A stretch of 64,000 nucleotides of DNA from assembly GCA_024695815.1 (NCBI GenBank), contig JAILHK010000013.1:1-64000 (forward strand). Direction: 5' to 3'. The notes under the pieces are model-generated. The model was not told where the DNA came from and ran no database searches. It worked only from the letters and a program-made list of their open reading frames with translations. This document shows, piece after piece, positions 419-51,373 of the stretch (its first letter is position 1; each line of letters starts with the position of its first letter). The position numbers and the translations under genes were made by a program. This stretch comes from Prevotella sp. Its GTDB lineage: Bacteria > Bacteroidota > Bacteroidia > Bacteroidales > Bacteroidaceae.

Positions 419-1624
419 ATGTATCTACTATATACAAGAATCCTAAAAACACATAGAGATTTACCCGAAAAAACACAAAAAATCACAAACAACCGAACGA
501 ATTCATCACAAACAACCGAACGAATTCATCACAAACGACCGAACAAAATCACCACAAACAACCGAAAAATTACAAAATACGAATGGCAGACAATAACAGA
601 ACTATGGGACACTATCAGAAATGAGGTGGATAAGCGAAGTGCTTTTTCTCAATTCATCCTGACGGGTTCTACTGTTGCTCCACAGGCTGAAGACACTGTT
701 CACAGCGGAACGGGGCGTATTGGCAGAGTCAAAATGCGACCGATGAGTCTATATGAGTCTGGCGAGTCTACCGGCAGTGTCAGCCTGGCTAAGCTCTTTG
801 ATGGCGAGACGTTCGAACCGCAACCAAATAGCATTGATTTGGAGCGTATAGCCTTTCTGACATGCCGTGGTGGCTGGCCACAAGCAACGCTGCTGGAAGG
901 TGATATTGCACTGGATCAGGCCTTTGGCTATGTTGATGACATTTCTGAAAGAGATATACAACGCGTTGACGGAGTAAAACGCAGCCCAGAGCGTACACGT
1001 CTATTACTACGCTCGTATGCTCGCAACATTTCTCAGCAAGTACCCTATAGCACCATCAAGGCCGATATGCTGTCAAACGACTCACAAACACTTGACGAGG
1101 ATACCGTTGCCAACTACATCAAAGCACTGAGAAAGCTTTTTGTAATTGAAGACCTTGATGCATGGAATCCAAATATCCGCAGTAAGGCAGCTATTCGTAC
1201 AAGCGACACACGCCATTTCGTTGATCCAAGCATAGGTACGGCATCGTTAGGCTTAGGTCCCAAAGACCTAATAAATGATCTGGACTCGTTCGGACTCATC
1301 TTCGAAGATATGGCCGTGCGTGACCTGCGTGTTTTTGCCGAGGCACTCGACGGGAAACTGTATCATTATCGCGACAGTTCAGGCCTGGAGTGTGACACCG
1401 TGTTACATCGTCGCAACGGCACGTATGGACTAATTGAGGTGAAGCTTGGTGGCGAAAAACTGATAAACGATGGTGCAGATGCTTTGAATACGCTTGCCGA
1501 TACCATAGATACCACGAAAATGAAGAAGCCTTCATTCAAGATGGTACTAACTGCTGTTGGCCCCTATGCATACCAACGGCCAGATGGCATATTTGTGGTT
1601 CCCATTGGTTGTTTGAAAGATTAA
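419..1624 (+). pseudogene. DUF4143-type ATPase lacking its N-terminal P-loop region; ORF N-terminus made of 23-nt tandem repeats
   Basis: EWQTITELWDTIRNEVDKR...FILTGSTV...HTGTGRI-like region and C-terminal DUF4143/nuclease-like region present; no Walker A; codons ~20-50 derive from a tandem repeat. Confidence 0.6.
480..580. repeat. ~4 copies of a 23-nt tandem repeat (atcacaaacaaccgaacgaattc)
   Basis: Direct reading; period 23 shifts reading frame each copy. Confidence 0.85.
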
Positions 1625-1762: not shown

Positions 1763-4108
1763 TTAAAATCCCACCCGATACTCCAATGTACTTTCTGTTG
1801 TCGTAAACAACGGCTCGCCCTCTTCGTAAGAACCGAACTCTTCAAGGTGTTTTACTCGCAGGTGTGCTATCAGTTCACGAATCTTTAGTTTACCTAGCGT
1901 TACCTCCTCATCAAACCGGAAGAAGAAATGAGGTCCTTTTACGTCAAATGGATACCAAGTGTCACCCATTCGTTTTTCCGTTACCTTGCTTGCTGTATCT
2001 TTAACATGAAAAACACGATACTCACCTGTTTGTTCTACGCCATCCGTATAAAGGACTACGAACTGGATATTTTTCTTCTCGTAAAAATATGATGTGTGAG
2101 CACCAGGACGTGGTGGTTCACCTTTAACTTCAAGACGTACATTATATACCAACGAACCCTTGTCATTATTGCCCAGAATCCATTGCAAATGTGCTTCATC
2201 CTTGTAGTATCCCACCAATATACCTTTACCGGCATATCGTTCCAGATAATGAAGCGTTAGCCATTGCGAATGTGGTACAGGTTGTTGTAGTTCCTGTTCA
2301 ATAGCGGGTTTAAGCACGTCCTGTGGATCTTGTCCCATACCGCATTTCTCTACTACAAAGTATCGTGACAACTCATCGAATTGCGCTTGTGTTTTTTCTG
2401 GTTCCTTCGCTGGACGAGCGTAAGCAAAATAAGTCATTCGTTCCTCACCATACGGTTGGAACACCCTGCCGTTCAACTCATAGAAGTGCTGCTGCAGATA
2501 CAATGCCCCGTCCACGCCCAAACGAGCACGCATAGCATATATCATAAACTCCTTTTGGATGACAGCCCTTATCTCTTCACGGAACTTCTTTCTTACATAT
2601 TCTTTCCATTGCGATTTCTCGTTGGCCTTGTTACGTGCATACAAGAATAGCACATACAGGAAGTTTACATCATATTGCGATAGAAACAGCGTATCTCTGT
2701 CAAACAAGCGGTCAGGGAACTGATACGAGATCTTTGTGCAATGTTCCTCGTTTTTATCCTTATGCGGTCGTATATTCTCCTGTACATTATATTTGAGGTC
2801 ATCATTGACAAAGGCGCTGATAAAGAAATTAGGAATCACATCATAGCCCTCTGTCATGGATGTATCCTGTAAGCGGATATTACCAAAACGTCCTCTATCT
2901 GCAAGTCTCTTTTGCTTGTCTAGTTCATCATACGCAGTATCTTCCGATAGGAATAGATTGATGTTCCATTGTATGACGTTCCTTGCATACGTGTACTGCT
3001 TATAGATAGATTCGGATGTCAGTGGATGTCCACTCTTATAGTATTTACTGTCACCTATATAATAGACTTCTCTGTTTGTTTGAGTCTCTGCAGATGTCAA
3101 TGCCATATCTGTGTACATGTGGTCCACTCGCTTGCCATCGTCTTGGTCTGCCAATCCTTTGGGAATATCCTGATGAGGTGTGCCTATCAGTTCGTCTATC
3201 ATTGCCTCAAATACAATATTGAAGCTCTTGGCCAACAGATACTCCTGTGCATTTGTGTTAATCGCTATTCGATACGAGTTTTCAAAGAAAGCATAGCACA
3301 AGTCCCATAGCTGGAGAGCCTTGTCTGAGAAGTACTTGTACTTTATCTGCATCAGCCTCGTCTTTCCCATCCCGTGCATGTATTGTGTGAACTGCTTGCC
3401 AGTAATCAGTTCGTACTGAATGTTGATAGGCGTATGGAAACCGTATGCTCCATTCAAATAGTTAAGGATGCTGTAGAAGATAACAAACAATTCCTCCTCG
3501 TAGTTGACAATACGTTTCTTGTTCACAGGATTCAGATACACCACATCCTTATCCTGCACAAAAGCCTGTGAATGTGAGATGGTTCGTGTCCAGTTGATTT
3601 TGTTGTTTCCCCTGTGCAAGTTCTTGATAGTGAAAAGCACGAAGTCGCGGTTCTCCTGGTTGAAGTTAATGAGCGACAGCACAATATCCAGATACGTTTT
3701 CGCCTGATGTTTGCGACCTTTACCCGCCTGTGGCAGATGCTTGTAAAGAATCGCCTTACTCTTGGGATTCGCTTTGTAGAACACATTCAATGCCCTATAT
3801 ATCCACACAGAGAACTCGTAGATAAACTTCCGATACTCCTTGCTTAACTTTTCCTGACCTTTCGGTTCCATCACCATTTCTGGCGTAACAGGTTCGCCAG
3901 ACTCTTGCTGCACACCCACCAATGTTTCCTGTTCCGTCAATAGCACCTTAGGCAGAATGAACACACAGTCGTGCAGGTGTGGGTTATAGAAATAGCCCAC
4001 ATACTGCACACTCACCCGCTTGTCAACATCTTGCAAGACGTAGATGTCCTTCAGGACTTTCTCCACTCGTGAGCTTTCGTACTGGTGTTCTTCAAACAGG
4101 ATATACAT
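1763..4108 (-). CDS. LlaJI-family-like restriction endonuclease subunit (PD-(D/E)xK)
   Basis: VDHMYTD...YYIGDSKYYK catalytic-type motif; directly downstream of McrB-like subunit, overlapping by 1 nt. Confidence 0.7.
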   Translation of the reverse strand: MYILFEEHQYESSRVEKVLKDIYVLQDVDKRVSVQYVGYFYNPHLHDCVFILPKVLLTEQETLVGVQQESGEPVTPEMVMEPKGQEKLSKEYRKFIYEFSVWIYRALNVFYKANPKSKAILYKHLPQAGKGRKHQAKTYLDIVLSLINFNQENRDFVLFTIKNLHRGNNKINWTRTISHSQAFVQDKDVVYLNPVNKKRIVNYEEELFVIFYSILNYLNGAYGFHTPINIQYELITGKQFTQYMHGMGKTRLMQIKYKYFSDKALQLWDLCYAFFENSYRIAINTNAQEYLLAKSFNIVFEAMIDELIGTPHQDIPKGLADQDDGKRVDHMYTDMALTSAETQTNREVYYIGDSKYYKSGHPLTSESIYKQYTYARNVIQWNINLFLSEDTAYDELDKQKRLADRGRFGNIRLQDTSMTEGYDVIPNFFISAFVNDDLKYNVQENIRPHKDKNEEHCTKISYQFPDRLFDRDTLFLSQYDVNFLYVLFLYARNKANEKSQWKEYVRKKFREEIRAVIQKEFMIYAMRARLGVDGALYLQQHFYELNGRVFQPYGEERMTYFAYARPAKEPEKTQAQFDELSRYFVVEKCGMGQDPQDVLKPAIEQELQQPVPHSQWLTLHYLERYAGKGILVGYYKDEAHLQWILGNNDKGSLVYNVRLEVKGEPPRPGAHTSYFYEKKNIQFVVLYTDGVEQTGEYRVFHVKDTASKVTEKRMGDTWYPFDVKGPHFFFRFDEEVTLGKLKIRELIAHLRVKHLEEFGSYEEGEPLFTTTESTLEYRVGF

Positions 4109-6129
4109 TAGTTCTTTTCTTCTTCCTTTTTCTTCCAGTTCATCACCTTCTGCACGAAGTCAGTCACCATTTCGGGATTCACATCGTTGCTGTCTTCCTT
4201 GTAGAAGTCAGGGAAAGTCAAATCATGCACCCTCCCCTCTTTGTCTTTATACTGGAACAACGAGGCGTCATCAAAGCCATAGTCTTTGAACACGTCGTTC
4301 CAAAGATAGAACAGCACCTTGCTTACGAATGTATCTACGGAGATAAGGTCGTTTTCACTATTTGGCAACTCAGATCTTTCTGGCGTCTTCTTATCAGGCT
4401 TGCAGAAGAAGTAGCCTAACTGTTTGTCGGCACTCGATGTCATAGAGGCGATGATGTCGTTGACTTTATGGATGAAGTCCCACCAATCCACAGGTTTTTC
4501 CACTCCATCAGCATCCTTTATCCTCACATCTATTTTCCATTCCTTTCCCTCGTTCTTAATCTTCATGTATTTCCACTCCCAGCGACGCTTGAAAGCAGAG
4601 TCGATAGGGAACAGACTCTGGTCACTTGTGTTCATTGTGGCCCAGATGTAGAGGTTGGGAGGTAATAAAAGTATACGTCCTTCCTGAATATCCTTAGAAA
4701 GAGTTGCGCCATAATTACTTATATAATTCTTTACGGTTCCTTCAACATCTATATTCTTGGTTAGCTTATACTCTTTACTATGTTCAAATGCGTCTTTGAT
4801 CGCTTGATGTAAATCTGTATCTGCTTCGATTGGGTATGAAGAGAAACAATTATCCGCTCTGTCCAGCAATTGGAATAGATCACCAAATATCTGAGCACAG
4901 TTTCCTCGATTTATTTCCTCTATAACAAGGAATTGTGGCTGTGGATTATCTGGACAATCTGCCATCTTTTTCCAAGCATAAAGGTATGCTTTTGTAAATG
5001 CCTGCATCACAAATTTATAGGTTATCCGTTTCTCTTTGTAAGTTCCTTCATTTTGATTGAGGCTAATCCCGTTATTAATTACGACTGGAACAATTTGAAC
5101 ATTGGTTTCATCCACCACTGGTTTGTACGCACCAACAAAGGTGGAATAGTCACTATCTGGATGGAATGTTGTTCGAATAGAACAATATTTCCCGTTCTTA
5201 ATTATATCATCTATCTTATGAGACTTACCAGTACCAGGAGCGCCATAGTATATTTCTTGACAATTCTCTAGAGAAGGATTATCTTCTTTGAATCTAACAA
5301 AGGCTTTTGGCATATCTTGAGTTAAATCGATATCCAAATTCTGATAAGTGGTTAGCGCTTTACTATAAGCTTCAGGGTAATCAATGATTGAATTGAGAAC
5401 TGACTCTATGACGTTCTTTGTCTTCATATAGAAATGGTTATAAAAGAATTCGATATAATTTGGATTTATAGAAACTCTTCCGTTCCTTATTTTAAACAGT
5501 TGGCAATTTTTGTCAATTAATGTCCACATTCTACTATTTCCCATATAGTAGTTGACATGTTTAGACGGAGGAGGATTCGTGGACAATATCTCTACCGTAT
5601 CTTCCAACTCATTATAAGAATCACATGTCATTACATATGAAAATAGCTGTTCAGTAGAAATGCTCTCAATTCCACGTAGATGAAGAGCATATAAGACATC
5701 AAAAATATAGAAAACAGGCAGAATATGATGAGTATTTGAATTATCATTTCTGTCTATAATTGCACTCATTTTGATTTTTAACAATTGTTCCGTCTTAATG
5801 GTATTGTACTCATCAGAACCTATTGGATATTTCCGTAGTTCTCGAAAAACGGGAGTTACAGATTCTTGACTATACCGACTACCCGTTTTAGTGACGAGTC
5901 CAAATAGTTGGGCGGAAGATAGCATTCTATGGTTGCATCTGAATCCGTTGAAGTCGTGCCGCACAAAGTAATCTTCAATGTTCTCATTTTCTGGATGTGA
6001 AATACTTGCAAATATACACGCGGCCTTGAAGACATCGTCAAACGAAGTCTCTTGTTTGGCAAAAGTCCATATACTTTTAATAGTGAGGGACTCCTGTTTG
6101 CGTTTCAAAATGGTACTAATATCTGTCAT
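4108..6129 (-). CDS. McrB-like AAA+ NTPase, restriction subunit
   Basis: Walker A GAPGTGKS; LVIEEINRGNCAQIFGDLFQLLDR; ATMNTSDQSLFPIDSAFKRRW. Confidence 0.85.
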   Translation of the reverse strand: MTDISTILKRKQESLTIKSIWTFAKQETSFDDVFKAACIFASISHPENENIEDYFVRHDFNGFRCNHRMLSSAQLFGLVTKTGSRYSQESVTPVFRELRKYPIGSDEYNTIKTEQLLKIKMSAIIDRNDNSNTHHILPVFYIFDVLYALHLRGIESISTEQLFSYVMTCDSYNELEDTVEILSTNPPPSKHVNYYMGNSRMWTLIDKNCQLFKIRNGRVSINPNYIEFFYNHFYMKTKNVIESVLNSIIDYPEAYSKALTTYQNLDIDLTQDMPKAFVRFKEDNPSLENCQEIYYGAPGTGKSHKIDDIIKNGKYCSIRTTFHPDSDYSTFVGAYKPVVDETNVQIVPVVINNGISLNQNEGTYKEKRITYKFVMQAFTKAYLYAWKKMADCPDNPQPQFLVIEEINRGNCAQIFGDLFQLLDRADNCFSSYPIEADTDLHQAIKDAFEHSKEYKLTKNIDVEGTVKNYISNYGATLSKDIQEGRILLLPPNLYIWATMNTSDQSLFPIDSAFKRRWEWKYMKIKNEGKEWKIDVRIKDADGVEKPVDWWDFIHKVNDIIASMTSSADKQLGYFFCKPDKKTPERSELPNSENDLISVDTFVSKVLFYLWNDVFKDYGFDDASLFQYKDKEGRVHDLTFPDFYKEDSNDVNPEMVTDFVQKVMNWKKKEEEKN

Positions 6130-7259
6130 CTACAATCAATATTCATTGGGGATTCAAATAAGTTCTTAACTAGCACTGCTAAGAAATAGGATAGTTTTGG
6201 CGGAACTGCATTTCCTATTTGTCTACATATAGAAGATTTAGAGCCAATGAACTCGAAAGAATCAGGGAAAGATTGTACCCTGGCGGCTTCTCTTGGTGTT
6301 AGAGTTCTGTCTTGCTCTGGATGAATAAATCGTCCACCAGCAGGAGTGTCAAAACGAGTAGTAATCGTCATTGTTGGCAGATTCCAATCTAATCTACCAT
6401 ATGCTCCACTATGTACAGAATGGATTTCTTCATCAAGTGAAGTCCAGTTTTGACCAGTTGACACTTTTTTCATGCGCCCAATTGCCATATTGTTATGTTT
6501 AGTTGCAACATGGTTTGTTATGATACCATCATTATTTCTTAGCACTCTTTGATAATGAGTTTTAGCAGGACTAAGTTTGGCCCTTCCCGTTTCTGAAGGT
6601 GCGGGAATGTCTGAAATGGCATCAAACAGGGACACAGGTTTGAAGAAATCGGGATATGATTGTTCAATAATCTCTTTATTATTATCAAATAGTTTATCTA
6701 TATCAAAATCATGATTGAGCATTCCTATTAATATTACTCGTTCACGTCTTTGAGGAATTCCAAAATCAACAGCCTTACAAACCTTATGATGTACATAGTA
6801 TTTGTCACCCTCAAAGTTCTCTGAATTACCAAAAGCACAGATTATCTCGTCAAATATCTCTCCCTTATCCTTTGATAGAATACCCTTTACGTTCTCAAAG
6901 ACAAAGATTTTTGGACGAACTATTCTTACCACGTTGACATAATGTCTGAAAAGATAATTTCTGGGATCATTCATGAACGCGTTCTTCTCCCTTATTCGTG
7001 CACCGGCCATAGAAAAACCTTGGCAAGGAGGACCGCCAATAATTATGTCTGCTTCATCTTTTTTAAAGTGGTTTTCGTCAACAATCTTACCTATGTCCTC
7101 AGCATACATAAGAGTTTTGGGATGATTATGGGAGTACGAAGAAGCGATTTCCTTGTCAAATTCAACAGCTTTGACAATTTCATAACCTGCTTTTTCAAAT
7201 CCAACAGAAAAGCCTCCACATCCGGCAAACAAATCTATTACCTTTAATTTATGCTCCAT
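6126..7259 (-). CDS. DNA (cytosine-5)-methyltransferase
   Basis: FAGCGGFSVGFEKAGY, GGPPCQGFSMAG, FENVKGI, PQRRERVILIG, LTPREAARVQSFPDSF motifs. Confidence 0.95.
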   Translation of the reverse strand: MEHKLKVIDLFAGCGGFSVGFEKAGYEIVKAVEFDKEIASSYSHNHPKTLMYAEDIGKIVDENHFKKDEADIIIGGPPCQGFSMAGARIREKNAFMNDPRNYLFRHYVNVVRIVRPKIFVFENVKGILSKDKGEIFDEIICAFGNSENFEGDKYYVHHKVCKAVDFGIPQRRERVILIGMLNHDFDIDKLFDNNKEIIEQSYPDFFKPVSLFDAISDIPAPSETGRAKLSPAKTHYQRVLRNNDGIITNHVATKHNNMAIGRMKKVSTGQNWTSLDEEIHSVHSGAYGRLDWNLPTMTITTRFDTPAGGRFIHPEQDRTLTPREAARVQSFPDSFEFIGSKSSICRQIGNAVPPKLSYFLAVLVKNLFESPMNIDCR

Positions 7260-8901
7260 CGCTTATTCTGTATTTTTCGTTAAACCTCTTTATGTAGTTC
7301 AATTCTGGTGCAGACAATTTATACACCGATTTTAGTTCATTATCTATCTCGTCAATGATATCCTTACAAAGCTTATGCTTGTATTCGTAATCAACTTGTT
7401 TCGTACCTACGTATTCCTTGGTGGCCTCTAATCGGTTTTCAAGTTTTTCGAACAAGACTGACCATTTTTTTTGTTTTGGAATCCTATTAGGGATTTTTAT
7501 GAAGGATAGTTCTTTGTTTGTAATATGCCATCCATCGGACACAATTGTCCACATCAGAAAGAACAGACTTGAATTCAACAAGCAATAAACAAAGGGGAGT
7601 TTAGTTTTATCTATTTTATATTCCTTGTAACTGTTTGATTTCATATCCTTGGAAAAAACTTTCATCCAAAAACATGCACGCAGGTTTATAAAAAAACTTC
7701 CTTTATTGTTTCCTTTGTTCAAAGAAAGAATGTCTTCGCCTTTGTATGAAAGTATCTTTTTATATATTGCTGTTCCCGTAGAATCTCCTAGTTTAGGCCA
7801 GTATCTATTATCGAATAGATGAATTTTTTCTAGGGACAAGTTGCAGAAAAGAGTTTCCCGTTCTGACCTATACCAATGATTGTACTTTGAGGTGTAAATA
7901 CCTTCTATGGCTTTTGTTTTCTGAGCCATTAATATTGTAAGTTTCTGGTGAACTCCAGAAAAAAGACAATCTGGTCTATCGGCAAAATTGAGAAGTAGTT
8001 GTTTCCCTGTTTGCGAATGTACATATTCTCTAATTGCCCCCATTCTTGCAGTAGATATATACGAAAGCGGTACTACAAATGCCAAGACCCCATCAGGCTT
8101 AAGCATAGTAGCAACATTCTTCATCACATCTGCATAGACGTTCCCAAAATCATATACAATGGTTCCCTCATATTTCCCATATTCGATATAAGGCGGATTG
8201 CCAACGATAATGTCATAATTGGCAAAGACATGTCCCTTATAGTCAACCATATCAACATTATAAAAGCATTCCGAAATCACCTTAGCTATAGGGACTACAT
8301 CTAACTCTTCCTCGAAAGAATCTATGACCAAGAAGAACAGTCTGAGCTTTGTAATATCTGTTGATGTACTTTCTATATCATTACCAATAATCGTTCCAAT
8401 AACATTTAATAAAGGAATGTCATTACAGATTCCAGTTTTTATCAATTCAATCTTTTGAGCCAATGCACTTACTAAAAAAGCTCCCGCTCCACAAGTCGGG
8501 TCAAAAACAGACGACTGCAAAACAACACGAACAGACTCGTTACTTAACCCTTTTAATTGTTGTTGTATAAGTGAAGAAGACGAGACAGTAACCAAAGAAG
8601 GATTTATGTGGTGATAGAATGAATTTAACACCATAAAATCAGTCACATCACTATCGGTATAGAAGACTCCTGCACTTTTCCTTCTTGATTCTTTTTCATT
8701 TACCCTAGCAAGGGCATCTTGAAGAACAACTTTTTTTAATTGCGTATCTGGTACTTGGAAATTGTATTTCTCATAGGTGCCCTTCAACAAAAGCTTAAGT
8801 GCTGAAAAGATTTTGATAGAATATGAATTATTGCCTCCATATCTATGTGATATGTGACTAACAACGATTTCTTGTATGTTATCGAAAATGGTGCTTGCCA
8901 T
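7249..8901 (-). CDS. N6-adenine DNA methyltransferase (Eco57I-like)
   Basis: DPTCGAGAFLVSAL and DIIVGNPPYIEYGKY motifs. Confidence 0.9.
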   Translation of the reverse strand: MASTIFDNIQEIVVSHISHRYGGNNSYSIKIFSALKLLLKGTYEKYNFQVPDTQLKKVVLQDALARVNEKESRRKSAGVFYTDSDVTDFMVLNSFYHHINPSLVTVSSSSLIQQQLKGLSNESVRVVLQSSVFDPTCGAGAFLVSALAQKIELIKTGICNDIPLLNVIGTIIGNDIESTSTDITKLRLFFLVIDSFEEELDVVPIAKVISECFYNVDMVDYKGHVFANYDIIVGNPPYIEYGKYEGTIVYDFGNVYADVMKNVATMLKPDGVLAFVVPLSYISTARMGAIREYVHSQTGKQLLLNFADRPDCLFSGVHQKLTILMAQKTKAIEGIYTSKYNHWYRSERETLFCNLSLEKIHLFDNRYWPKLGDSTGTAIYKKILSYKGEDILSLNKGNNKGSFFINLRACFWMKVFSKDMKSNSYKEYKIDKTKLPFVYCLLNSSLFFLMWTIVSDGWHITNKELSFIKIPNRIPKQKKWSVLFEKLENRLEATKEYVGTKQVDYEYKHKLCKDIIDEIDNELKSVYKLSAPELNYIKRFNEKYRISDGA

Positions 8902-9306: not shown

Positions 9307-9520
9307 CAACTTATTTCTGATATAAGCATCAAAGTGATTCGAATTTACACTTTATTTAAAGGAAAAGGGATTTTCATCAAACTTATACCCCAAAAAGTAA
9401 ACAAACAAACTATCGGTACTCACGTATTCATTTTTTAAGGCATCAAGGTGTAACTATTTGCTTATTTCATACTAAATCAGAAATGAAATGGTGCATAGTA
9501 ATGCCACTATTTGCTTGCTT

Positions 9521-9927
9521 TTACGATGCCGTAGTGACACTCTTACGATGCAATAGTGACACTTTTACAATGCAATAGTGACACTCTTAAGATGCAATAG
9601 TTTAGGTTTTGATCTGATTCTAGGGGCTAGATTGGGCGAATCTAGCCCCTGGATGTGGTGGTTCTAGCCCCTAGAAGTGGCATTCCTAGGGGCTAGAAGT
9701 GGATGTTCTAGGGGCTAGAACCAAAACAATGGGGCGCAGTTTAGACTTTAGAATGGGCACTTCTAGACTTTAGAATGGGCACTTCTAGACTTTAGAATGG
9801 GCACTTCTAGACTTTAGAATGGGCTGTTCTAGACTCTAGAATGGGCTGTTCTAGACTTTAGAATGGGCCGTTCTAGACTCTAGAATTGCTCTGTCTAGAC
9901 TTTAGAATGACTCTAAGAGTGGCACTT
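9521..9927. repeat. 22-bp-period intergenic array with three sequence blocks
   Basis: CTAG cores at 9620/9642/9664/9686/9708 and 9763/9785/9807/9829/9851/9873/9895; CACT cores at 9538/9560/9582. Confidence 0.95.
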
Positions 9928-10033
9928 TTAGCCGGAGATAGTGTAGCTTTTGGTAAGTAAGAGCTATGGAATTGGCTTGCGATAGTAGTGCAATAGCGAT
10001 GCACCAGCAGCGTTATTGTGGGCTACGAAGCGC

Positions 10034-10071
10034 AAAAAAAAGAAGTAACCGACTATTCGACTACTTCTATT
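10034..10071 (-). terminator. intrinsic terminator of the 10053 gene
   Basis: agaagta...tacttct hairpin; T-run on minus strand (aaaaaaaa at its left edge). Confidence 0.6.
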
Positions 10072-31255: not shown

Positions 31256-31336
31256 TAGGTTAGTCAACAATACTTATTTTGCAAAGATATAAAAAAATAA
31301 ACAAGTATTCCAAATCTTTAGTACGTTTTTTTGTGC

Positions 31337-31468
31337 AAAGCACCACTTTAACATGACCAAAGTGCCACTATTCCGTAACTAAAGTGCCACTATTCCGTAA
31401 CCAAAGTGACACTATTCCGTAACCAAAGTGACACTATTCCGTAACCAAAATGACACTGTTCCATAAGA
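31337..31468. repeat. 22-bp-period intergenic array, 6 units
   Basis: aaagtgNcactattccgtaacc repeated; 6 x 22 = 132 bp exactly. Confidence 0.97.
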
Positions 31469-31469
31469 A

Positions 31470-31504
31470 GAACCCCGAAAGCCTTTGTACGACTTTCGGG
31501 GTTC
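31470..31504 (-). terminator. hairpin between array and NCS2 gene
   Basis: aaccccgaaag...ctttcggggtt. Confidence 0.6.
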
Positions 31505-41475: not shown

Positions 41476-42636
41476 ATGAAGATTATACTATTTACAGTTA
41501 TGCCCATGTTCGTTTGCTTTTTTTGGAGTTGCATGTTAGCATTCGAACTTCACCGAGATGGAAAGCACCGCACTCGTTTTCATCTATTTATATTCATGCT
41601 AACGACAATGGTGCTGTACATGGGGCATTTCGTATTCTTCAACCACAAGACAACGCTTATCCCTCTGACAAACACGCTATATTGTGCCAGCAACTTAGCT
41701 GTTTACCCTCTATTCTATCTATACATATGCTCACTGACTACCAGAAGGGAACATCATAAACTCCGTTATATCATGCTTATCCCCTCCATCTTGGCTTTTA
41801 TTTTTGTGGGATTATTATATATACTAATGTCGCCAGAGGAAACAGCGCAATTCATAGACATTTATCTATACCAAGGAAAACACGAAGGACTCACGGGGTT
41901 AGCCATTCCACAAGCCGTAATTCACGACATCTGCAAGGGTCTGTTCGCCACCCTTCTTATCCCAGTCGTATTATTAGGTCACAAACATCTGAAGCAATAT
42001 GAAAGACAAATTAAGGAAGCCTATGCCGATGTAGAAGACAAGACTTTAGACCTTGTTCATTATATGTTGCTAACATTCGTCATTTCATCCATTTTCTCGT
42101 TTGCATTAAACATCATAGGTCGCCATCACTTCAACGAGTCTATCTGGAAACTGAGCATTCCCTCTACACTTTTCTCTATCATACTATTTATAATAGGTTA
42201 TGTAGGACTGTATCAGAAATTCAGCATAGAGAATATTGAACAGGACGAAGAACAGGACAAAGATTATACCGATGAATCCGTATCAGGGACACCAGTAATC
42301 AAAGAACTGCGCAATCGCATTGAACAACTGATGGACAAGGATCAACTATACCGTCAGCCCAACCTAAAGATTGCCGACATCGTGCAACGCTTGGGCACTA
42401 ATCGCAACTACATCTATATCGCCATCAACCGCGAAACCGGCATGTCATTCAATGAGTATATCAACCGCATGCGCATTGATTATGCAACGACGCTCATCAG
42501 TCAACATCCCACCAAGCTGCTGACCGAGATTTCAGAGGAATCTGGCTTCACCAGCACTACATCGTTCTACAGAAACTTTAAACTATACAAAGGCGTTGGT
42601 CCGCGCGAATATCAAAAAATGCAGAACCATCAATAG
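41476..42636 (+). CDS. membrane-anchored AraC-family regulator
   Basis: N-terminal TM segments; C-terminal NRETGMSFNEYINRMRIDYA...SGFTSTTSFYRNFKLYKGVGPREYQ. Confidence 0.9.
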   Translation: MKIILFTVMPMFVCFFWSCMLAFELHRDGKHRTRFHLFIFMLTTMVLYMGHFVFFNHKTTLIPLTNTLYCASNLAVYPLFYLYICSLTTRREHHKLRYIMLIPSILAFIFVGLLYILMSPEETAQFIDIYLYQGKHEGLTGLAIPQAVIHDICKGLFATLLIPVVLLGHKHLKQYERQIKEAYADVEDKTLDLVHYMLLTFVISSIFSFALNIIGRHHFNESIWKLSIPSTLFSIILFIIGYVGLYQKFSIENIEQDEEQDKDYTDESVSGTPVIKELRNRIEQLMDKDQLYRQPNLKIADIVQRLGTNRNYIYIAINRETGMSFNEYINRMRIDYATTLISQHPTKLLTEISEESGFTSTTSFYRNFKLYKGVGPREYQKMQNHQ

Positions 42637-42643
42637 AAAATCA

Positions 42644-42852
42644 TCGTTTTCTTTTTGCATTTCGCTCATTTATTCGTAACTCTGACTACGTCTTAGTTAC
42701 TGGCATTCGGAAATGAAAAAGAAAACCTCGTTTTCTTTTTGCATTTCGCTCATTTATTCGTAACTTTGGATAAACCGAAGTTACTTGCATTCGGAAATGA
42801 AAAAGAAAACCTCGTTTTCTTTTTGCATTTCGCTCATTTATTCGTAACTTTG
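42644..42852 (+). repeat. 84-bp tandem repeat, 2.5 copies, each with promoter-like boxes
   Basis: tcgttttctttttgcatttcgctcatttattcgtaact(t/c)tg at 42644, 42728, 42812. Confidence 0.95.
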
Positions 42853-42860
42853 CGAAATCT

Positions 42861-43889
42861 ATGAAGTACGTTCAAGCCATCGCAAAAATTATACTGCCAC
42901 TCCTTCTGGGTGGTGCCATTCTTTATTGGATGTACCGCGGCTTTGATTTTCAAGGCATTAAGCAAGTGGTGCTCCACGAAATGAACTGGACCTGGATGCT
43001 GCTTTCCTTTCCATTTGGCATACTGGCACAGGCTTTTCGCGGCTGGCGCTGGCGTCAGACACTGGAGCCAATGGGCGAGAAAACAAGAAATTCGGTTGTC
43101 GTCAACTCTGTTTTTACCAGCTATGCCGTCTCGCTGCTCATTCCGCGTATTGGCGAGTTCACACGTTGTGGACTGCTAAAGCGCTGGGAAGGGGTGTCGT
43201 TTGCCAAAGCGCTGGGCACGGTGGTCACCGAACGCGCCGTCGATACGCTGATGGTGATGCTCTACTCTGGTCTCATCCTGCTTTTCGAGATGAGTATCTT
43301 TGGCACCTTTTTCAAAAAGACAGGCACATCGATCGACCATATATTGACCAGCTTCTCGCTGACAGGATGGCTCGTAACGGGCATTTGTGGCGTGGCCGTA
43401 TTGCTGTTGCTCCACATGCTGCTGCGTCGCCTATCTATATATAATAAGGTAAGGATGACATTGCACGGCATCTGGGAAGGCGTGCTGTCACTGAAGGGCA
43501 TCAAAAACCTCCCTCTCTATCTGCTGTTCTCAGTCGGCATCTGGGTGATGTACTTCTTGCATTTTTACCTGACATTCTTTTGTTTCGACTTCACCAAAGC
43601 ATTAGGCATCGGTTGTGCACTGGTATGTTTCGTGGTGGGCAACTTTGCCGTCATCGTACCTACGCCCAATGGTGCTGGTCCATGGCATTTTGCCGTTAAG
43701 ACCATGTTGATTCTCTATGGCGTGGCCGACGAGCGTGCCCTGTATTTCGTGCTTATCGTACACACCGTACAGACCCTGCTAGTTATCCTCTTGGGCGTAT
43801 GGGCGTGGATATCTCTTAACTTCACGAAGATACGCAGACCCGAAGGTGCTGTGGCGCAAGAAGGAACCATTATTATGCAAACAAAATAA
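42861..43889 (+). CDS. lysylphosphatidylglycerol synthase TM region/UPF0104 family membrane protein
   Basis: AQAFRGWRWRQTLEPMGEK..., PTPNGAGPWHFAVKTML. Confidence 0.85.
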   Translation: MKYVQAIAKIILPLLLGGAILYWMYRGFDFQGIKQVVLHEMNWTWMLLSFPFGILAQAFRGWRWRQTLEPMGEKTRNSVVVNSVFTSYAVSLLIPRIGEFTRCGLLKRWEGVSFAKALGTVVTERAVDTLMVMLYSGLILLFEMSIFGTFFKKTGTSIDHILTSFSLTGWLVTGICGVAVLLLLHMLLRRLSIYNKVRMTLHGIWEGVLSLKGIKNLPLYLLFSVGIWVMYFLHFYLTFFCFDFTKALGIGCALVCFVVGNFAVIVPTPNGAGPWHFAVKTMLILYGVADERALYFVLIVHTVQTLLVILLGVWAWISLNFTKIRRPEGAVAQEGTIIMQTK

Positions 43890-50971: not shown

Positions 50972-51095
50972 TTATCCAATTACGTCCTCGTCGTCCTTTT
51001 CAAAAATCCTGAATACGAGAAAGCACACATAAAACAAGACTTTTTCCCACTCTATAGTGGCGCATTACCAACAGAAAAGCGTTACTTTGGTAATT

Positions 51096-51271
51096 CACGA
51101 CTTAAGTCGAAAGATCTCACGACTTAAGTCGAAAGAATTCACGACTGGAGTCAAAAGATCTCACGACTTAAGTCAAAAGATCTCACGACTTAAGTCGTAA
51201 GACACCAAAGTGCCACTATTAGCATATAATAACGACACTATTAGCATATAATAGCGGCACTATTGACTTAT
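51096..51271. repeat. 22-bp-period intergenic array, 8 units in two sequence blocks
   Basis: cacgacttaagtcgaaagatct x5 then (aa)agtgccactattagcatat x3; 8 x 22 = 176 bp exactly. Confidence 0.97.
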
Positions 51272-51373
51272 AAAAAGAACTGAAACAACAAACAAAAAGG
51301 GCCCTCTGACTGCCAAGTTGTTTGCTTGACAAGCCAAAGGGCCCTATCTGTAATCCGGGAAAACCACCCGACT

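Follow-up and report, generated by a model that had tools for sequence, protein, structure and literature searches.

Phased arrays of palindromic sites near gene ends in Xylanibacter/Prevotella brevis-like genomes

Why should stretches of intergenic DNA keep to an exact 22-bp period? The question is raised by three arrays in a window of 64,000 nucleotides (the whole stretch analysed here) from the draft genome of a rumen bacterium, Xylanibacter/Prevotella brevis-like (G000; 2.63 Mb, 54 contigs, 83% complete), which shares ~97-98% identity with Xylanibacter (Prevotella) brevis ATCC 19188 (G060) at several loci. The original prediction had placed 22-bp arrays at three sites of the window, and all three are present where it put them. 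We surveyed ~0.84 Mb of G000 and 0.79 Mb of ATCC 19188, partly picked around arrays, and computed array densities solely from stretches picked without regard to arrays. Such array-blind stretches of the G000-type genome contain ~20-37 arrays per Mb, and we estimate 50 to 100 arrays per chromosome. The array family is real, genome-wide and evolutionarily constrained.

The repeated unit is 22 bp long and consists of a 15-bp odd palindrome (6+3+6), hereafter the core, and a 7-bp linker. The outer, or type-1, core is AAWAGTGSCACTWTT and includes the motif first noticed, AGTGNCACT. The central, or type-2, core is TTCTAGNNNCTAGAA, with GGG/CCC or AST at its centre. A third class, type 3, is also central (CGACTTAAGTCG; array C is an example). 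Arrays follow a simple grammar, an outer type-1 block, a central type-2 block and a second outer type-1 block on one common register, and the usual layout is four outer, five central and four outer sites. The arrays of the window are composed as follows (array A extends over ~9497-9995 in window coordinates).

Array A, left outer block: 9497..9610, unstranded; type-1 cores centred at 9504, 9537, 9559, 9581 and 9603, the last degenerate.
Array A, central block 1: 9618..9720, unstranded; five TTCTAG-NNN-CTAGAA cores with GGG/CCC centres, at 9625, 9647, 9669, 9691 and 9713.
Array A, junction of the two type-2 blocks: 9721..9738, unstranded; 33 bp centre to centre, i.e. 1.5 units, an 11-bp phase step.
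Array A, central block 2: 9739..9907, unstranded; eight type-2 cores with ACT centres, centred at 9746-9900 in 22-bp steps.
Array A, right outer block: 9915..9995, unstranded; type-1 cores at 9922 and 9944, then degenerate positions.
Array B: 31336..31460, unstranded; six type-1 cores centred at 31343-31453 in 22-bp steps, with no central block.
Array C, left outer block: 51053..51089, unstranded; two degenerate type-1 cores centred at 51060 and 51082.
Array C, central block: 51095..51200, unstranded; five type-3 units at 22 bp.
Array C, right outer block: 51206..51264, unstranded; type-1 cores centred at 51213, 51235 and 51257.

Array A had been described as three unrelated sequence blocks. 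It holds in fact two core classes: its second and third blocks have the common core TTCTAG-NNN-CTAGAA and differ in the central triplet (GGG/CCC vs ACT). The odd palindrome proposed to be common to the three arrays is indeed so, the type-1 core being found also in B and C. In array C the type-3 units keep the register of the outer cores within half a base. The eight-unit block of array A is a deviation from the five-unit norm, and the orthologous array in X. brevis ATCC 19188 is 66 bp shorter, i.e. it has three units fewer and thus five. Some arrays have two central blocks of ~five units each joined by a 33-bp centre-to-centre step, and junctions related to that of array A are found at L028, L036/C5, L158, L161 and L166.

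All three arrays were thought to lie just beyond the terminators of minus-strand genes. This holds for A and B, adjoined by scan-called hairpins at 10041-10068 and 31470-31504, respectively; near C, a GGGCCC hairpin (~51299-51345) is visible in the sequence and was not called by the terminator scan. The genes beside the window arrays encode proteins with Eco57I-type methylase, Fer4, permease, RsfS and DUF349 domains, and no partition or Rep domain was found among those tested with Pfam. The same window includes a likely restriction-modification locus on the minus strand (4108-8901), with a type II restriction enzyme-like gene (4108-6129), a DNA cytosine methyltransferase (6126-7259) and an Eco57I/type IIG-like methylase (7249-8901), and downstream of it a gene with no assigned identity (1763-4108). 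Two other repeats occur in it. One, a 23-bp direct repeat (ATCACAAACAACCGAACGAATTC) unlike the 22-bp arrays, is present in 3.7 copies close to where a plus-strand ORF begins (482-566, plus strand); the other, of 84 bp, is present in almost three copies in the gap between two ORFs of the plus strand (42635-42877).

The excess of phased cores over chance is large. Two AGTGNCACT motifs separated by 13 nucleotides (AGTGNCACT-N13-AGTGNCACT, at most one mismatch) occur 57 times in the G000 genome and 119 times in ATCC 19188, vs 0 for the reversed pattern in either. Single AGTGNCACT motifs are merely 2-fold more frequent than the reversed control in G000 (142 vs 71), and the signal thus resides in the phased arrays. 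The autocorrelation at lag 22 that had been suggested as a check gives 17 non-coding clusters in 458 kb, with 0-4 at other lags save lag 44, the double, which also gives 17. The lag-22 peak is found in ATCC 19188 and in another species (G142) as well, and there is no lag-22 cluster in a 50-kb control from E. coli. When neighbouring cores are less than 100 bp apart, 560 of the 567 distances are multiples of 11 bp and 466 are exactly 22, with negligible numbers in the reversed control. Steps from type-1 to type-2 cores follow the same 11/22-bp ruler.

The number of units is also narrowly set. Among 70 type-2 (TTCTAG) runs, 54 have five units, 13 have four, one has three and two have eight. Outer blocks most often have four units, and the type-3 blocks of three arrays (G000 L018, array C of the window and G060 L128) have five. 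Column frequencies show conserved cores and near-random linkers of ~0 bits, while the linker between a type-1 and a type-2 core has its own consensus, TTTTGNTNYNRTTCTAG, in either direction. We thus rejected an ordinary VNTR or slippage minisatellite, given the near-random linkers and narrow unit number. CRISPR arrays have near-identical repeats and unique spacers of ~30 bp; this candidate was rejected too, on account of the 15-bp cores, the 7-bp linkers and the fact that linkers are common to orthologues. One might speculate that the arrays are intrinsically curved DNA made of phased A/T tracts and need no dedicated protein, and AAW and WTT do border type-1 cores about every 11 bp. Yet the inner core letters (AGTG/CACT, CTAG) are conserved as much as these tracts or more, and A-tracts are scarce or absent in type-2 and type-3 cores, which makes curvature a very improbable explanation.

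The comparison of related arrays tells which of their parts are kept. In 18 aligned array pairs, mostly orthologous, picked for alignability and with some block replacement, substitutions amount to 126/1950 (6.5%) in cores vs 134/910 (14.7%) in linkers (p=6e-12). Type-1 cores are less conserved than type-2 cores (p=0.009), and positions +3 and -3 of the latter show zero differences in 152 comparisons. Indels within arrays (15 pairs) are 11, 22, 66 or 88 bp long in nine of nine cases, although the replacement of a block may have produced the two of 11 bp through its effect on the alignment; of the 18 indels in flanks comparable in length and divergence, mostly 1-7 bp long, 16 are off-register (p=6e-5 vs arrays). 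Orthologous cores also show paired changes, from TCTAG..CTAGA to TCCAG..CTGGA, which keep the palindrome while linkers remain similar. The original prediction favoured selection on spacing and palindromic cores over simple slippage, and it is supported by the position-specific conservation, the register-preserving indels and the fixed unit number. Selection on palindromes and spacing, and not slippage, is the simplest account of these sequences.

One could nevertheless argue that slippage, unequal recombination and palindrome-templated repair make and keep 22-bp units with no selection at all. Mutations of whole 22-bp units do occur between strains, some changes restore palindromes, and a whole central block may switch subclass: it has AGT centres in G000 L050 and CCC centres in G142 L155, between matching flanks. 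Yet homogenisation would yield similar linkers, at odds with near-random linkers next to conserved cores, and it does not sit well with a unit number narrowly fixed at five or with different core classes on one register. We regard it as quite improbable. The idea that the arrays are themselves repeat-homogenising elements fares unevenly: linkers are essentially random between units and give it no support, though central blocks do change core subclass as a whole.

Arrays are intergenic and favour the 3' ends of genes. With simple ORF calls, and with counts that are not fully independent as one locus may appear in two strains, 31 of 40 arrays between codirectional genes are closer to the upstream stop (median 54.5 bp) than to the next start (205.5 bp), and arrays are enriched in convergent relative to divergent gaps (22/52 vs 10/87, p=5e-5). 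The proposal of an insulator or read-through barrier fits this location; 3' ends are also where insertions are best tolerated. The same location would be expected of elements acting in RNA, the transcript forming chains of mini-hairpins that serve as terminators or stabilise the RNA. Paired core changes and a strong predicted folding (z about -10) agree with this, though the folding is found on either strand and is expected of any array of palindromes. Yet in arrays between codirectional genes the sense strand has no excess of mismatches of the G-T type, which would allow G-U pairs, over those of the C-A type (74 vs 68), and GGG centres are as frequent as CCC centres whichever the orientation relative to genes. 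This lack of strand bias suggests that DNA, rather than RNA, is what is recognised. Moreover, RNA hairpins have no need for exact helical spacing, arrays A and B are situated past predicted terminators, and the only Rfam match in the window is a tRNA. Positions +8 and -8 of type-1 cores covary (C..G or G..C), and neighbouring units repeat the same letters; we rejected this as an RNA signal, as it reflects an array-level subclass and mismatches show no strand bias. An RNA-level role is therefore improbable.

Arrays have also spread. G000 L024, G142 L167 and G142 L168 have 340-403 bp in common at 91-92% identity, including an 80-bp leader, between unrelated flanks; many other pairs are similar in the array only, over 100-290 bp at 80-89%, and type-3 arrays make another dispersed subfamily. 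Copies at unrelated loci imply that the element disperses, and by this sequence evidence it moves or has moved. An array is present at G142 L165 and absent at the matching G000 L041, with no clear target duplication, and the site of G060 orthologous to L167 has a different gene. This dispersal of whole elements, the fixed 4-5-4 architecture and the second core class on one register go beyond what had been predicted.

The main rival to a function for the host is hence a non-autonomous mobile element whose palindromes are sites for its transposase or an accessory protein, with no benefit to the host and found at 3' ends simply because insertions are tolerated there. The array-only copies, the presence/absence polymorphism and the fixed architecture are all consistent with such an element. 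Yet we recognised no terminal inverted repeats at three comparable array ends and no clear target duplications at two compared sites. Besides, in orthologous arrays that have not moved, cores are still conserved and indels still keep the register, which suggests that the sites matter at rest and argues against mobility alone. The RAYT transposase domain (Y1_Tnp, PF01797) does not track the arrays, and a RAYT/REP association was rejected on these grounds: it has no match in G000 (83% complete) or G032, which both bear arrays, and several genomes that lack the type-1 pattern do have it. The Mu/Tn7-type transposase domain PF09299 gave no matches, the control genomes being equally silent. Tn7 (with its TnsB sites) and Mu carry three or four sites of ~22 bp at each of their two ends; these sites are directional instead of palindromic, and the elements have defined termini with target duplications. 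In contrast, the sites of our arrays are palindromic, and neither defined termini nor duplications were seen at the compared sites. Overall, pure mobility is a serious though rather unlikely alternative.

Among the known classes tested none seems to match the arrays in full, and a search of the open-access PMC literature found no description of a family of 22-bp palindrome arrays. The nearest genomic analogues are REP/BIME and BrickBuilt elements (PMC3733652, PMC4596501). REPs are 20-40 bp long, have a GTAG or CGTC tag at one end and are associated with RAYT genes (PMC3733652). Like them, the arrays are extragenic, palindromic, clustered, present in many copies and near gene ends; unlike them, they keep palindromes of 15 bp strictly to a 22-bp register and fall into two core classes with set numbers of units, and the GTAG/CGTC tag is absent from the column frequencies of cores and linkers. 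BrickBuilt is a MITE of Porphyromonas gingivalis with 1-22.8 copies of one 23-nt repeat, a leader, a tail and IS5-like terminal inverted repeats, GAGACC.. (PMC4596501). It resembles the arrays in being an intergenic, dispersed tandem minisatellite of similar unit length in Bacteroidales. It differs in that the arrays have units of 22 bp, and their palindromic cores, of several classes, are arranged as ordered blocks, the central one typically of five units. One array subfamily has a common 80-bp leader, and no terminal inverted repeats were recognised at three comparable array ends. The TAACTGA heptamer repeats of Beggiatoaceae, Cyanobacteria and Bacteroidetes are direct repeats of seven bases, for the most part located immediately 5' of start codons (PMC4679880); they are likewise sporadic intergenic arrays with no known binder, whereas ours have 22-bp palindromic units near stops. 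The closest working analogue is a centromere-type iteron array such as parC of plasmid R1, in which ParR dimers bind two sets of five iterons and assemble into a DNA-wrapping helix (PMC4949242, PMC5016525). Double-block arrays, with five plus five type-2 units and a 33-bp junction, are reminiscent of this. Yet parC adjoins its par operon on a plasmid (PMC4949242, PMC5016525), while our arrays are found in tens of chromosomal copies, with palindromic cores, 22-bp spacing and no adjacent partition gene. A plasmid search gave no match to array A.

Dimers that assemble side by side on one face of DNA should require just such sites: palindromic, constant in helical phase, set in number and recognised regardless of strand. 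Phased protein docking is, in outline, the probable mechanism, and the binding array for an oligomeric DNA-binding protein, put forward in the original prediction, is still the best reading. A symmetric, dimeric DNA-binding protein would recognise the 6+3+6 palindromes, and the spacing of 22 bp, i.e. two helical turns, with phase steps of 11 bp, would put successive dimers in contact on one face of the DNA. The complex would have a defined size, typically five central dimers with about four flanking them on each side, and different proteins or specificities may serve the outer and the central cores. The likely outcome would be a roadblock or boundary acting in both directions at the ends of genes, to counter read-through or converging transcription, or else a local complex organising the DNA. 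We infer the existence and oligomerisation of the protein or proteins, and the role as roadblock or boundary, from sequence patterns. In its full form, a helically phased platform after gene 3' ends on which symmetric proteins build a defined complex, this reading seems to us about evenly balanced between right and wrong. Part of the fixed architecture could be inherited from dispersing master copies.

Of 260 genomes of the genus, 10 contain the extended type-1 pair, while the reversed control gave 0 matches; the type-1 pattern is absent from all 114 genomes searched in the family's other genera. Given this limited range, any binder must be restricted or recognise different cores elsewhere. 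A related species (G006) has type-1 cores around AAATYANNNTRATTT central blocks, and G032 has type-1 units and a TGAGTTAACTC array. Other species of the genus (G073 C6/C54, G249 C10/C39) have variant outer cores at 22 bp, of the AAAACTGNCACTTTT and AAAAGAGNCACTTTT types, which suggests that core specificity drifts. Two genomes without the type-1 pattern (G026, G084) have short 22-bp arrays at L214:18106-18195 and L219:1-98, with the palindromes CTCTTT..AAAGAG and GGCAGCGGCCGCTGCC, and in a few more Prevotella relatives there are weak 22-bp arrays built on different palindromes again. When the whole database was scanned for three 22-bp-spaced CTAGNNNCTAG cores, exact arrays outside X. brevis came mainly from a Streptococcaceae MAG, Nc350_bin195, and from one rumen MAG contig. 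In 67 kb of Nc350_bin195 picked around arrays there are eight lag-22 clusters with at least three core types, mostly in convergent gaps. This MAG has further 22-bp arrays in convergent gaps at L201:3801-4037 (CACTNAGTG then A and T runs, ~10 units), L202:2302-2372 (AAGTGCAGGTCTACACTT) and L202:2549-2769 (AGTTTG/CAAACT with CCATGG). The CTAG matches in Lewinella, Saprospiraceae, Bacteroides caecigallinarum, Shewanella and Psychromonas were discarded: they belong to a different CTAG repeat of 7/8 bp, which fits 22 as 7+7+8. In these taxa and in an Elusimicrobia MAG such dense repeats are a separate and sporadic class (L058, L059, L060, L062, L067, L078-L080, L082, L084, L086, L091, L092).

More tentatively, these arrays may belong to a class of elements defined by geometry, in which phased palindromes, with 6+3+6 cores at 22 bp in ordered blocks of fixed number, build a stoichiometric nucleoprotein complex at gene ends with core sequences that differ by genome (TTCTAGNNNCTAGAA, CGACTTAAGTCG, AAATYANNNTRATTT and TGAGTTAACTC in Xylanibacter/Prevotella, CGCTAGNNNCTAGCG and CACTNAGTG in the Streptococcaceae genome). 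Such different cores in different genomes would then imply an undescribed and widespread system of chromosomal boundaries or packaging, a possibility that we find less probable than not and put forward as such.

Intergenic repeats of bacteria are usually accounted for as slippage products, insertion remnants or terminators. Here, it is the geometry, i.e. register, unit number and palindromes, that is apparently conserved while the sequence between sites drifts, and this points to a protein assembly relevant to the host. They also offer ready bait, and dependence on helical phase is a prediction open to a sharp, direct test. If the arrays of Streptococcaceae are the same phenomenon, the design would have arisen or spread across phyla.
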